A stretch of DNA of 64,000 nucleotides, taken from the NCBI GenBank assembly GCA_001603805.1, contig LUZY01000011.1, positions 1-64,000 on the forward strand. The letters are read 5' to 3'. The DNA comes from Deferribacterales bacterium Deferri_01. Its GTDB lineage: Bacteria; Chrysiogenota; Deferribacteres; Deferribacterales; Geovibrionaceae. Positions 42,936 through 47,773 of the stretch are shown here, in pieces. Below the pieces are notes generated by a model. It was not told the DNA's origin, did no database searches, and saw nothing but the letters and a program-made list of their open reading frames with translations. The translations under genes and the position numbers were made by a program. Every line of letters begins with the position of its first letter. The stretch's first letter is position 1.

Positions 42936-43403
42936 TCAGGAGGACAGGACAGATTCAGTGTAGTCTGCTTCCTGCTCTTCTGTAGTGCCTCCGAGACCAA
43001 ACTTGATTCTTTCAAGAATCCTGTTGAGGGACTCAAGATCAGCTTCTGGCATAAGAGTTCTTATATAGCTGTCAATATTTTCCCAGACTTCAATGACTTT
43101 CTCTGCCGACCTGTTTCCCTCTTTAGTGAGGTGAACACGGATAACTCTGTCATCGTGTTTGTCGCTGTAGCGTTTAACAAGTCCGCCTGTTTCCATTCTT
43201 TTGACCATATTAGTGACAGTGGCGGGGGATATGCCTAGGGTTTTAGCTATGCTTATCTGCGTCATGCCGTCGTTTTTGTAAAGTTCGGCAAGAACTTTCC
43301 CCTGTCCGTGGAAGATACCCATAGGGTCAAGGTCTTCACGGATACGGTCTTCAAGAAGCTTTGAAATGTTTAAAAAATGATGTAGAAAAAGTTTTCGCTC
43401 CAT
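42936..43403 (-). CDS. MarR family transcriptional regulator
   Basis: A 155-residue winged-helix regulator. The recognition helix is in MTQISIAKTLGISPATVTNMVKRME (about residues 47-71) and the wing in LVKRYSDKHDDRVIRVHLT. It is dimeric by family. ATG at 43403 (MERKLFL) was chosen because GGAAGGTGG lies just upstream; an earlier in-frame ATG lacks a site. It is a single-gene unit with its own terminator, and no target is obvious. The neighbour upstream is the KaiC/PPDK-like gene on the same strand, 95 bases away. Confidence 0.9.
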   Translation of the reverse strand: MERKLFLHHFLNISKLLEDRIREDLDPMGIFHGQGKVLAELYKNDGMTQISIAKTLGISPATVTNMVKRMETGGLVKRYSDKHDDRVIRVHLTKEGNRSAEKVIEVWENIDSYIRTLMPEADLESLNRILERIKFGLGGTTEEQEADYTESVLSS

Positions 43404-43497
43404 AGGTACCACCTTCCCTTTGCTTGCTAAAGAATAATATTGCACATTTATTAATACATGATTGTTAAGAAGTGCAAAGGGGGGTGTATGAGCGGGT

Positions 43498-46074
43498 TCA
43501 GGCGAGGATAACTGCCTTCTGTGTTTCGATATCCGAGTTCAGGAAGGCTCTTCCGCCAGTGTCATAAATCTTTATTGCATCAAGGATATGAGCATCTGCT
43601 TCTATTATTGTTTCTGAGATTTCCTTGAAGCGCCATATTTCATTAAAATTTATGCTGCTTTCATTTTTTTCGCTGAAGAGTGCCATATAGAAAGTGCCGT
43701 TTTCCACAAGATCCTGAAAAAAGTGAGATCCGAATGACAGCTCAGGATAAAGCCCTCCTGCGTCATATTCCATCTCGCAGATTGCGGCAAAACTGCTTAT
43801 GTCTGCAAAAACAATCGGAACTCCTAGTGAAGGGGTGCTGGTTCCCCACCTGCCCGGACCGAAAAGCACAGCATTTTTGCCCAGCGCACGGACACTTTTG
43901 TTCACCATTGATATTGCTTTTGCAGTGTTGTATTTATCGTTCAGGCTCAGTGCGGAATATTTCTCCGCATCAACAAAAACAAGCCAGTGAACGGGCATAT
44001 GAACATTGCCGCCCATGAAGTGACCGTTTGATTCCAGTATTATGCGGTTGTGCTGGGTGTCCAGAAGCTTATACTCCGCCCCTTTGCGTGCGCTTTTCTG
44101 AACAGGACGGCACTGTAGGAGATTTATCACATAATCTGAACCTTCTGTGAAATTGAGAGTGAACTCTATCTCAACTGGGTTTTTATATTCGGCTTCGATG
44201 CAGTTCATCATATTCTTCATTACTTCGGGAAATGTTCCACGGAGAAGCTTCTGGAATGTGAGTATCCAGATATGCTGTTTCAGCCGTCCACGCTCTTCAA
44301 GCCTTCTTTCTGTCTCAAAATCCCTTAGAGCAAATTCGTTAAGGTCAAACCCCAGCTCTCCTTTTGTTATCTGCATCAGGGATACGCAGTGTTTTCCCTC
44401 TGTTCGCACGTCAAGAACGTCTATATCTCTCTGTGAGTAGCGCATTTTGTTATGAATATCGGAAAGAGGGATCAGTTCAGGATCAGAGAGGGAAACAATT
44501 CTGGGGTAGTCACCCTCCACACGGTTGACAGCCCTTGTACCAAGCCCCATTACTATGCGGAGCATTCCCGCTTCAGGGTCAATATTTCTGTTCCACACAT
44601 AAGTATTGTACGAAAGTCCGACCCCTGCTGCATGGGGGTAGTAGTAATGATCCTGATAACTGCCCGAAACTCTCTGCACCAGAAGAGACATCTGCTCATC
44701 CGCTTCCTCAAGCCCTCTGTTGCGTCTGTATTCAAGGGCGTCTCTGCTCATGGCACTGGCATATACCAGCTTCATGCAGCGGAAGAAATCTTCATATCTT
44801 TCCTCCGGTGAGCCCATCACAGAGCAGAAGAAGCTTTCGTATTTTCCGGCGAAGGCATTGCCGTATCCGTCTTCGAGAAGACTGCTGGAGCGTATTACGA
44901 TCGGATACTGACCGAAGTAGTCGAGCATTTCCTTTATTTTTGACTTTATCTCCGGCGGGAGCTTTCCTTCCGGAAAAAGTTTCTCCAGTTTTCTTCCTGC
45001 CTTGAAATAACCGTGCGGGGTTTTCTGCTCCATAAAGTGATCCCACCAGCCGTTGTGGACTATGAAAGAATGGAAAACATCAGAGCCTATATAAAAAGAA
45101 TCGTGCGGTTCAATATAATTATCAAAGGGTTTGCCCCTTTTGTTGTCTAAAATTTTTCTTGCCAGAAGAAAGCCCACTGCCTTGCCGCCAATAAAGCCTG
45201 TGCCGATCATGCGGTTTTTTATCTCCAGAAGGTCAGCTAAGGTGAAGTGACGGCTCACCATGAGGAGAATGCGGTGATCCCTGCCCATCAGCATAAGGGC
45301 AAGCTTTTCCTTCATTGCGTATTTTTCTGTCTCTTTATTTGTACCGAGAAGAGCTTCCGCCTTTATAAACTCTCTGTCCCATGCATCCACCGCACGCCTT
45401 ATCCCTGCGCCGGGTGCAGTGCAGAGAGTACGGAAAAGGCTTGTCGCCTCCAGGCTGTTTTTCACAGGGGTGAAGCTTTCGGCACTTTCATATTTGTGGG
45501 GCAGAAACATGGTGGGGCTGGTGCGCTCAAATACTTTCTGCGGGTGAACATAAAGGCTTACGCCGTCATTGTACGCTTCCAGCATAACCTGTGTGGTTTC
45601 CCTGATTCGGTTGATTGTTTCAAAGGAGTGATGGTTTTTGTACACAGCAAAACATGCCACTGTGTCCAGCCTGTATAAAAAAGGGCAGATTATACGGAAG
45701 AAGTTTGCCACTGAATTATCCGAAGCCCATGAAGAAAGAAGGTAAGAAAGACAGTCAAAGATGTAGAAAACGCCCCTGCCTTGTTCCTTGACTATTCTGT
45801 ATGCGTGTTCGGCAAACTGACCGAAGCCTATGTCAGCTTCGAGGTTGAATACCTTTGCTTCTGTTTCCTCAACTATTGGTGGGTGATCTGCAAAGCGGAT
45901 ATAGCAGAGCCTTCTGCCGTCTTCAACAGCCTGACGGGCAAATGGACGCACAAATGCAGCATATTCCGCAAATGACGGAACATTCCAGACTACATTGTCT
46001 CCCATGCGGAGACAGTCGATAACTGAGTCCAGACCGCTCAGACCGGTTTTGACCTTATCTTTTTCCGAGTGCAT
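43498..46074 (-). CDS. Degenerate KaiC-like domain fused to PEP-synthase-type ATP-binding domain
   Basis: An 858-residue protein. Residues ~8-180 look like a KaiC/RecA domain: TGLSGLD (10-16) is the family opening, but the phosphate-binding loop is replaced by NVPSFAEY, so ATP binding there is unlikely. Residues ~290-680 resemble the PPDK/PEP synthase N-terminal ATP-grasp domain, with GFIGGKAVG (293-301) and PIVIRSSSLLED (391-402). The phosphohistidine and PEP-binding domains are absent. The last ~180 residues (with FGPGRWGTSTPSLGVPI) are unassigned. It is probably a regulator or phosphotransfer protein and not an enzyme of central metabolism. No ribosome site is clear. gdhA lies directly upstream. 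Confidence 0.75.
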   Translation of the reverse strand: MHSEKDKVKTGLSGLDSVIDCLRMGDNVVWNVPSFAEYAAFVRPFARQAVEDGRRLCYIRFADHPPIVEETEAKVFNLEADIGFGQFAEHAYRIVKEQGRGVFYIFDCLSYLLSSWASDNSVANFFRIICPFLYRLDTVACFAVYKNHHSFETINRIRETTQVMLEAYNDGVSLYVHPQKVFERTSPTMFLPHKYESAESFTPVKNSLEATSLFRTLCTAPGAGIRRAVDAWDREFIKAEALLGTNKETEKYAMKEKLALMLMGRDHRILLMVSRHFTLADLLEIKNRMIGTGFIGGKAVGFLLARKILDNKRGKPFDNYIEPHDSFYIGSDVFHSFIVHNGWWDHFMEQKTPHGYFKAGRKLEKLFPEGKLPPEIKSKIKEMLDYFGQYPIVIRSSSLLEDGYGNAFAGKYESFFCSVMGSPEERYEDFFRCMKLVYASAMSRDALEYRRNRGLEEADEQMSLLVQRVSGSYQDHYYYPHAAGVGLSYNTYVWNRNIDPEAGMLRIVMGLGTRAVNRVEGDYPRIVSLSDPELIPLSDIHNKMRYSQRDIDVLDVRTEGKHCVSLMQITKGELGFDLNEFALRDFETERRLEERGRLKQHIWILTFQKLLRGTFPEVMKNMMNCIEAEYKNPVEIEFTLNFTEGSDYVINLLQCRPVQKSARKGAEYKLLDTQHNRIILESNGHFMGGNVHMPVHWLVFVDAEKYSALSLNDKYNTAKAISMVNKSVRALGKNAVLFGPGRWGTSTPSLGVPIVFADISSFAAICEMEYDAGGLYPELSFGSHFFQDLVENGTFYMALFSEKNESSINFNEIWRFKEISETIIEADAHILDAIKIYDTGGRAFLNSDIETQKAVILA

Positions 46075-46082
46075 GTTTATTT

Positions 46083-46116
46083 ATAAAGGAAAGGGGAAGC
46101 CTGTCAAGACTTCCCC
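46083..46116 (-). terminator. Rho-independent terminator of gdhA
   Basis: On the minus strand GGGGAAG-tcttgacagg-CTTCCCC is followed by TTTCCTTT. It lies just after the gdhA stop and before the next gene on the same strand. Confidence 0.8.
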
Positions 46117-46128
46117 GTGGGTGATTTG

Positions 46129-47478
<1,350 letters not shown>

Positions 47479-47544: not shown

Positions 47545-47572
47545 ATTATACATTAAATCCTGAAAATTGTAA
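47545..47572 (-). promoter_or_regulatory. Probable sigma-70 promoter of gdhA
   Basis: On the minus strand TTACAA (-35, 47572-47567) and TATAAT (-10, 47550-47545) are separated by 16 bases. This predicts transcription from about 47538 and a leader of about 60 bases. The rest of the 295-base divergent region up to the kinase gene at 47774 shows no clear site. Confidence 0.55.
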
Positions 47573-47773
47573 GAATAATTACAAAAAAATATTTATCTTG
47601 ATTATTAGTTATTTATCCCTGCAGCCTAATTTGTGGAGAGAAAAACGGTATTAAAAACTAAGGTCAATTAGAGATATTGCAATATAAAGTAACGTTCATT
47701 TGTCTGTAGCCTAATTAAGTAATAAATCCTTTTTTAGTTTATTTCTTTTCTCTTAAGTTATATTCTGTAGCCC

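Follow-up and report, generated by a model that had tools for sequence, protein, structure and literature searches.

A pseudo-KaiC/PPDK_N fusion protein with an orphan C-terminal domain is repeatedly encoded beside glutamate dehydrogenase and other ammonia-assimilation genes

Phosphoenolpyruvate (PEP) synthase and pyruvate phosphate dikinase (PPDK) combine a PPDK_N ATP-grasp domain (PF01326) with a phosphohistidine domain and a PEP/pyruvate barrel, and the context of PEP synthase is gluconeogenesis. The PPDK_N core is also found in rifampin phosphotransferase, RPH (PDB 5hv1, 5hv3), which has rifampin-binding and recognisable swivel domains and phosphorylates a non-pyruvate substrate by means of a catalytic histidine near its C-terminus (PMC4844700). 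A third described system is the KaiC/RadA/FlaH superfamily (PF06745). Here, we describe a gene whose 858-residue product joins a KaiC-like domain without a P-loop, a PPDK_N core and an orphan C-terminal domain. The gene lies in a stretch of 64,000 nucleotides (the window) from Deferribacterales bacterium Deferri_01 (contig LUZY01000011.1, assembly GCA_001603805.1), directly after the glutamate dehydrogenase gene gdhA, see Table 1. The protein belongs neither with the PEP synthases nor with KaiC, and its context is nitrogen metabolism. Ammonia assimilation through glutamate dehydrogenase (GDH) and through glutamine synthetase and glutamate synthase (GS-GOGAT) is a central point at which carbon and nitrogen metabolism meet. 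The catalogue of its known controls (PII, GlnE/GlnD, GarA, NrpR) is regarded as largely complete. A conserved protein of about 860 residues that recurs beside the genes of this junction has so far been labelled by one of its domains only, and naming its association with nitrogen makes its function directly testable.

The open reading frame is present as the initial annotation had it; it is uninterrupted and occurs as a single copy in its genome. The protein is 88-89% identical to its counterparts in congeners and 32-53% identical to those in other Deferribacterota. A scan of genome contigs with the single sequence gave no match; the alignment-based scan succeeded and found relatives encoded in at least 569 matching stretches, so the protein is not peculiar to this genome. 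Homologues occur in several bacterial phyla and in two methanogens. The public annotation of these relatives, "PEP/pyruvate-binding domain-containing protein", is a domain label only. A literature search, covering few subscription papers, returned no functional study of this architecture or of a gdhA-linked PEP-synthase-like protein; PMC9888227 is about ordinary PPDK. Phage and plasmid records contain solely distant relatives that match over the core, and a role in mobile elements is therefore unsupported.

Gene neighbourhoods were compared at 99 homologous loci, 80 of which were chosen by sequence similarity alone (the best 80 of the at least 569 matching stretches). At 45 of the 99 loci gdhA lies within 6 kb, and 33 of the 46 gdhA copies are at most 400 bp from the homologue. 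The gene is found upstream on the same strand (21 copies), downstream on the opposite strand (16), downstream on the same strand (7) or upstream and divergent (2). These linked loci cover seven or more phyla, with members in Deferribacterota, Desulfobacterota, Spirochaetota, Planctomycetota, Bacillota, Pseudomonadota and the archaeon Methanoregula. Other neighbours are GltB/GltD (19 loci), CarB (9), NrpR (7), a CarA/PabA-type amidotransferase (7), PyrG (5), Amt or Amt-PII (5), AsnB (3) and PurF (3), where CarB, Amt-PII, AsnB and NrpR were identified by Pfam and the remainder were read from sequence. Within Omnitrophota, the homologue sits inside gltBD-pyrG-carAB clusters. At least one nitrogen gene is present at 66 of the 99 loci, a count that excludes the NtrC-type regulators found near 29 of them.

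Control loci do not show this linkage. With flanks of about 1.5 kb, gdhA is found at none of the 44 loci of the KaiC/RadA family and at none of the 32 PEP-utiliser/PPDK loci; the lone match in the search (L179) is a locus of the 858-residue protein itself. Within flanks of the same length and with the same kind of search, 11 of 16 loci of the family have gdhA. Mapped onto the tree of the family, the type of neighbourhood switches a minimum of 33 times, and proximity to gdhA is gained or lost 18 times, where the losses are inflated by short contigs and flanks (genomes of family f2 scored as "none" have gdhA about 2.6 kb off). The link to gdhA has thus been kept or remade through many rearrangements. 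We are highly confident that the association of the family with nitrogen assimilation is a firm new result. From the repeated adjacency to gdhA and other ammonia-assimilation genes, in bacteria and some archaea, it follows that the protein is probably an unrecognised part of the control or execution of nitrogen assimilation. The initial annotation suggested that the fusion may pass phosphate to an unknown partner or sense nucleotides for it. The partner is not wholly unknown, as the neighbouring genes suggest glutamate dehydrogenase and ammonia assimilation.

Pfam assigns a single domain to the full protein, PPDK_N at residues 295-666 (153.5 bits, cut-off 27). The closest structural match of the full-length AlphaFold2 model (89-row alignment, predicted local distance difference test score, pLDDT, 87.7; predicted template-modelling score, pTM, 0.82) is RPH structure 5hv3 (Foldseek, E 2e-14). 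The GGK and RSSSLLED motifs are kept, as first noticed, and together with the DIE/EIE and QxRP motifs they are what the protein shares with PEP synthase and PPDK. The residues K298, R395, E401, D402, S414, E637, Q654 and R656 are invariant in the aligned family, and K298, R395, S414 and E637 align to Lys22, Arg117, Thr136 and Glu297 of RPH (PMC4844700). Judged by these residues, the ATP site of the core looks fully functional, and the protein is reasonably likely to be a working phosphotransferase.

The rest of a PEP synthase is absent. The Pfam scan of the full protein finds neither the PEP-utilizers phosphohistidine (swivel) domain (PF00391) nor the C-terminal PEP/pyruvate-binding barrel (PF02896), and the C-terminal domain has no barrel match in the PDB. 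Conversely, the N- and C-terminal domains of the protein are not found in PEP synthase. The PEP-synthase equivalogs of NCBIfam score 46-59 bits against cut-offs of 740-883 (TIGR01418, 46.2 against 739.75), and the RPH equivalog NF041857 scores 25.9 bits against a cut-off of 999. An ordinary PPDK of 884 residues is encoded separately elsewhere in the same genome. The view that the protein is no standard PEP synthase and lacks the phosphohistidine and barrel domains is thus borne out, and a self-contained PEP synthase is ruled out.

The N-terminal domain follows the KaiC pattern with a TGLSGLD entry motif, GDNVVW and a Walker-B-like strand, but carries NVPSFAEY where GxxxxGK[ST] is expected. Foldseek matches this part of the full-length model to KaiC, FlaH, KaiC-like PH0186 and RecA structures (E 8e-10 to 1e-7). 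Profile searches find the relation to KaiC as well: in hhalign the N-domain profile scores 34 against RadA/KaiC/RecA sequences (P 2.4e-4), while the best of 40 column shuffles scores 17 and the reversed profile 22. Against RadA alone P is 0.009, and against a single archaeal KaiC 0.004. The Walker A motif is missing in all 91 rows of the family alignment, which spans many phyla, so the loss of the P-loop is ancient and fixed and not a decay of this copy. Columns 31-34 of this alignment mostly read Q-V-D-S, and G11, G25, D26, V29, D107, L109, L112, W116, D119 and K180 are invariant. Sequence and model thus agree with the first reading that residues 1-200 are a KaiC/RecA-type domain without a P-loop. 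The domain differs from KaiC, RadA and FlaH in the missing Walker A, in being single and in falling below Pfam detection, as KaiC (PF06745) is absent both from the hits of the full protein and from the families listed for the 91 N-domains.

In Pfam, single N-domain members resemble Elp4 (PAXNEB), the archaeal DUF7090 and MEDS, weakly but repeatedly and with no significant sequence match; these families are RecA-like. To the best of our knowledge, no P-loop-less RecA fold of this kind (Elp4/Elp5, MEDS, DUF7090) has been described in fusion with an ATP-grasp domain. The RecA fold is retained without the Walker A consensus in ELP4-6 (PMC11050213). Among the 60 genomes searched, the N-domain does not occur outside this architecture. 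A PDB sequence search with its profile gave RPA32 at chance level only, and this candidate was rejected.

The C-terminal domain, of about 190-195 residues, is predicted as a confident separate domain, and its type is as unassigned as the initial annotation had it. It has no Pfam match, and the PDB sequence search with its profile gave only a ribosomal protein at E 0.4, which was rejected. The comparison with PDB folds gives none (best E 0.3, template-modelling score about 0.2), so its modelled fold seems to have no relative among solved structures. Strongly conserved are GPGRWGT..PSLG and SFG[ST]HFF, and R742, E767 and H784 are all invariant. Among the 98 aligned sequences, H784 is the sole invariant histidine; a low-confidence loop (residues 780-783, low pLDDT in the full-length model) immediately precedes it. 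The standard phosphohistidine domain is indeed missing, as first annotated, but a candidate acceptor exists in this domain. Since PPDK_N enzymes pass phosphate to a histidine, which is C-terminal in RPH (PMC4844700), we propose H784 for this role.

The C-terminal domain is found together with PPDK_N also in distant relatives. A Bacteroidota-type "PEP/pyruvate-binding domain-containing protein" (L145:1912-4869 in genome G053; plasmid hit H3) has the same PPDK_N core and a C-terminal domain with GPGRWG...GTHFF, matching the query from residue 290 to about 799-825. In L145, a receiver-like N-terminal sequence precedes them instead of the pseudo-KaiC domain. PPDK_N and the orphan C-terminal domain therefore form a core module whose N-terminal part is exchangeable. 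No function of the Bacteroidota-type protein is described in the database records or literature found. In another distant homologue (L146, genome G056), the receiver-like part and the PPDK_N/GRWG/GTHF core are split over two adjacent open reading frames. At the H784 motif, L145 and L146 read GTHFF/GTHFL. A more divergent type II paralogue with about 33% identity (L017-L020 and L147; genomes G004, G005, G006, G007 and G010) may represent an adaptation of this core to a different task. At its loci an ArsR-like regulator gene lies upstream and a nitrilase-like gene downstream, gdhA is not nearby, and at three of them a small Cys-rich protein is encoded on the opposite strand.

Our analysis shows which folds the first two domains have, that the ATP-grasp site is intact, that a single histidine is invariant and that the genetic linkage recurs; from these results we infer the following chemistry. 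The ATP-grasp domain would use ATP as phosphate donor, like its counterparts in PEP synthase and RPH. Within the C-terminal domain, H784 of the mobile SFGTHFF segment would stand in for the missing swivel histidine, and the phosphate would move on to an acceptor linked to nitrogen status, either a metabolite or a partner enzyme. The nucleotide-dead KaiC-like domain could then serve as a scaffold or as a docking or oligomerisation platform at the place where the distant relative has receiver-like domains. We suggest, with about even confidence, that the protein works in ammonia assimilation as an ATP-dependent phosphotransferase, its most likely role being to modulate NADP-glutamate dehydrogenase and, in other lineages, glutamate synthase and glutamine-using enzymes. 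Action through H784 combined with regulation of GDH or its pathway would be the best-supported detailed reading, although a tentative one that falls a little short of an even chance. It can further be speculated that the family is a widespread, undescribed regulatory kinase of GDH and ammonia assimilation that several bacterial phyla share with some methanogens: a KaiC-type ring would dock on hexameric GDH or on other nitrogen enzymes, and the ATP-grasp domain would charge H784 in a new phosphocarrier domain, linking energy charge (ATP/AMP) to nitrogen assimilation. We consider this full version unlikely. If true, the family would parallel the control exerted by PII or by GlnE-type proteins.

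Several observations weigh against a phosphotransferase dedicated to ammonia assimilation. About one third of the loci, many of them clostridial, have no nearby nitrogen gene, and the type II paralogue (L017-L020) does not adjoin gdhA. Within Deferribacterota, gdhA is present in 15 of 16 genomes with an orthologue (one copy interrupted) and in 20 of 35 without (P 0.01, uncorrected for kinship); among genomes that are at least 90% complete the difference is not significant (P 0.12), and this co-occurrence is only suggestive. The proposal that H784 may be a phosphohistidine draws on its invariance and position. Compared with the PDB, the C-terminal domain is unlike the known phosphohistidine domain in fold. 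A diverged PEP-utilizers swivel domain was also rejected at the sequence level, as hhalign against 27 swivel domains scores 13.7, below the best shuffles (18-21); in RPH, by comparison, the swivel domain is recognisable.

Among the alternatives, the one that survives best is a metabolic ATP-grasp enzyme, a ligase or small-molecule kinase making or using a nitrogen metabolite, for example glutamate, 2-oxoglutarate, glutamine or carbamoyl compounds, with no regulatory role. C-N ligation is a common activity of ATP-grasp folds. Relatives of PPDK_N act on substrates other than pyruvate, RPH on rifampin and, according to their NCBIfam names, PigC/RedH in prodigiosin formation. The placement within the gltBD-pyrG-carAB clusters of Omnitrophota would suit such an enzyme, and the invariant set R742/E767/H784 could form its substrate site. 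However, depending on the taxon the linkage is to GDH or else to GOGAT or CTP synthase, which speaks for a shared signal and not for one pathway step, and a degenerate KaiC domain at the N-terminus, or a receiver-like one in the distant homologue, is more usual in regulation. We regard a purely metabolic role as rather unlikely.

Less probable still, and doubtful in our view, is an energy sensor that binds ATP without catalysis, or with slow catalysis, and that acts by docking on GDH or GOGAT, perhaps by means of a KaiC-like ring. In its favour, the N-domain has no Walker A of its own and resembles other P-loop-less RecA folds, and hexamers are formed by GDH and, as rings, by KaiC-type proteins. 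Yet all catalytic residues of the ATP-grasp domain are invariant in 98 homologues, which is beyond the needs of binding alone, and one histidine is kept everywhere despite the lack of a recognisable histidine domain. A diverged PEP synthase of carbon metabolism, with an incidental link to gdhA, agrees with the clear homology of the core and with the public label but is highly improbable given the missing phosphohistidine and barrel domains, the complete PPDK elsewhere in the genome and the presence of gdhA near 45 of 99 homologues but at none of the 76 control loci.

In the window, the gene is the middle one of a unit of three on the same strand, 54 bp downstream of gdhA and followed by a gene for a MarR-family regulator, see Table 1. 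The MarR gene is kept beside the 858-residue protein gene only within the genus (cluster c17, 3 loci). A terminator-like hairpin separates gdhA from the gene, and hairpins like it occur in the equivalent position in most related Deferribacterota genomes checked (L002-L007). Partial termination, giving less of the 858-residue protein than of GDH, would suit this arrangement; just as well, the hairpin could terminate transcription fully, the downstream gene having a promoter of its own, and an attenuator setting the ratio of GDH to its modulator is possible. A pair of -35/-10-like elements overlapping the start codon of the gene was dropped, as it is not conserved in congeners.

Table 1. Positions in the window of the 858-residue protein gene, its domains and motifs, and the neighbouring features.
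Feature	Position	Strand	Evidence
Kinase-like protein gene, pseudo-KaiC / PPDK_N ATP-grasp / orphan C-terminal domain, 858 aa	43498..46074	-	Open reading frame, Pfam, AlphaFold, Foldseek
KaiC/RecA-fold domain without P-loop, residues 1-200	45475..46074	-	Foldseek KaiC/FlaH/RecA; hhalign
NVPSFAEY at Walker A site, residues 31-38	45961..45984	-	Sequence; family columns; alignment to RadA P-loop
Walker-B-like strand and next helix, residues 103-119, FYIFDCLSYLLSSWASD	45718..45768	-	D107, L109, L112, W116, D119 invariant; model strand 103-108
PPDK_N ATP-grasp domain, residues 295-666	44077..45192	-	Pfam PF01326 E 1.1e-44; Foldseek rifampin phosphotransferase E 2e-14
GGK, residues 296-298; K298 = Lys22 of PPDK/RPH	45181..45189	-	Invariant 98/98; Lys22 role PMC4844700
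RSSSLLED, residues 395-402; R395 = Arg117 of RPH	44869..44892	-	Invariant R, S, S, S, E, D; alignment to 5hv6; role PMC4844700
EIEF...QCRP, residues 635-657, ATP-grasp metal/nucleotide motif (E637, Q654, R656)	44104..44172	-	Invariant 98/98; aligned to DIEW..QSRP of PEP synthase
C-terminal domain without known fold match, residues 667-858	43501..44076	-	Domain-only model pLDDT 92.4, pTM 0.89; no Pfam family
GPGRWGTSTPSLG, residues 739-751	43822..43860	-	G741, R742, G744, G751 invariant; also in divergent receiver-type homologue L145
SFGSHFF, residues 780-786; H784 (43723-43725), candidate phospho-acceptor	43717..43737	-	H784 invariant 98/98
gdhA, NADP-specific glutamate dehydrogenase, 449 aa, first gene of unit	46129..47478	-	NCBIfam NF006929 E 1.9e-234, above cut-off; Pfam ELFV dehydrogenase
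Possible sigma-70-type promoter of gdhA unit, CTTACA-17-TATAAT	47545..47573	-	Consensus scan 10/12; weak: promoter-like sites no commoner than in shuffles
Terminator-like hairpin between gdhA and 858-aa gene	46093..46116	-	10 bp stem, T-rich tail; minimum free energy -17.3 kcal/mol, z -3.9
MarR-family regulator, last gene of unit	42936..43445	-	Pfam MarR E 2.5e-14

Some further observations concern the neighbourhoods of individual lineages. In genus g10, one genome (G024) has gdhA and the homologue adjacent to each other, and two (G017 and G030) have neither. In family f2 (L009-L011, L016), a gene for the beta subunit of a 2-oxoacid:ferredoxin oxidoreductase directly precedes the homologue; at L009-L011 a phosphomannomutase-like gene follows it, and gdhA is about 2.6 kb away in G012, G019 and G031. 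In G012 (contig C2:2066712-2068033), gdhA is in two overlapping pieces in different frames, an apparent frameshift or sequencing error. In Desulfobacteraceae, a large open reading frame with no Pfam match lies directly upstream of the homologue (L063:4955-8986, 1343 residues, and L047:2171-3760).

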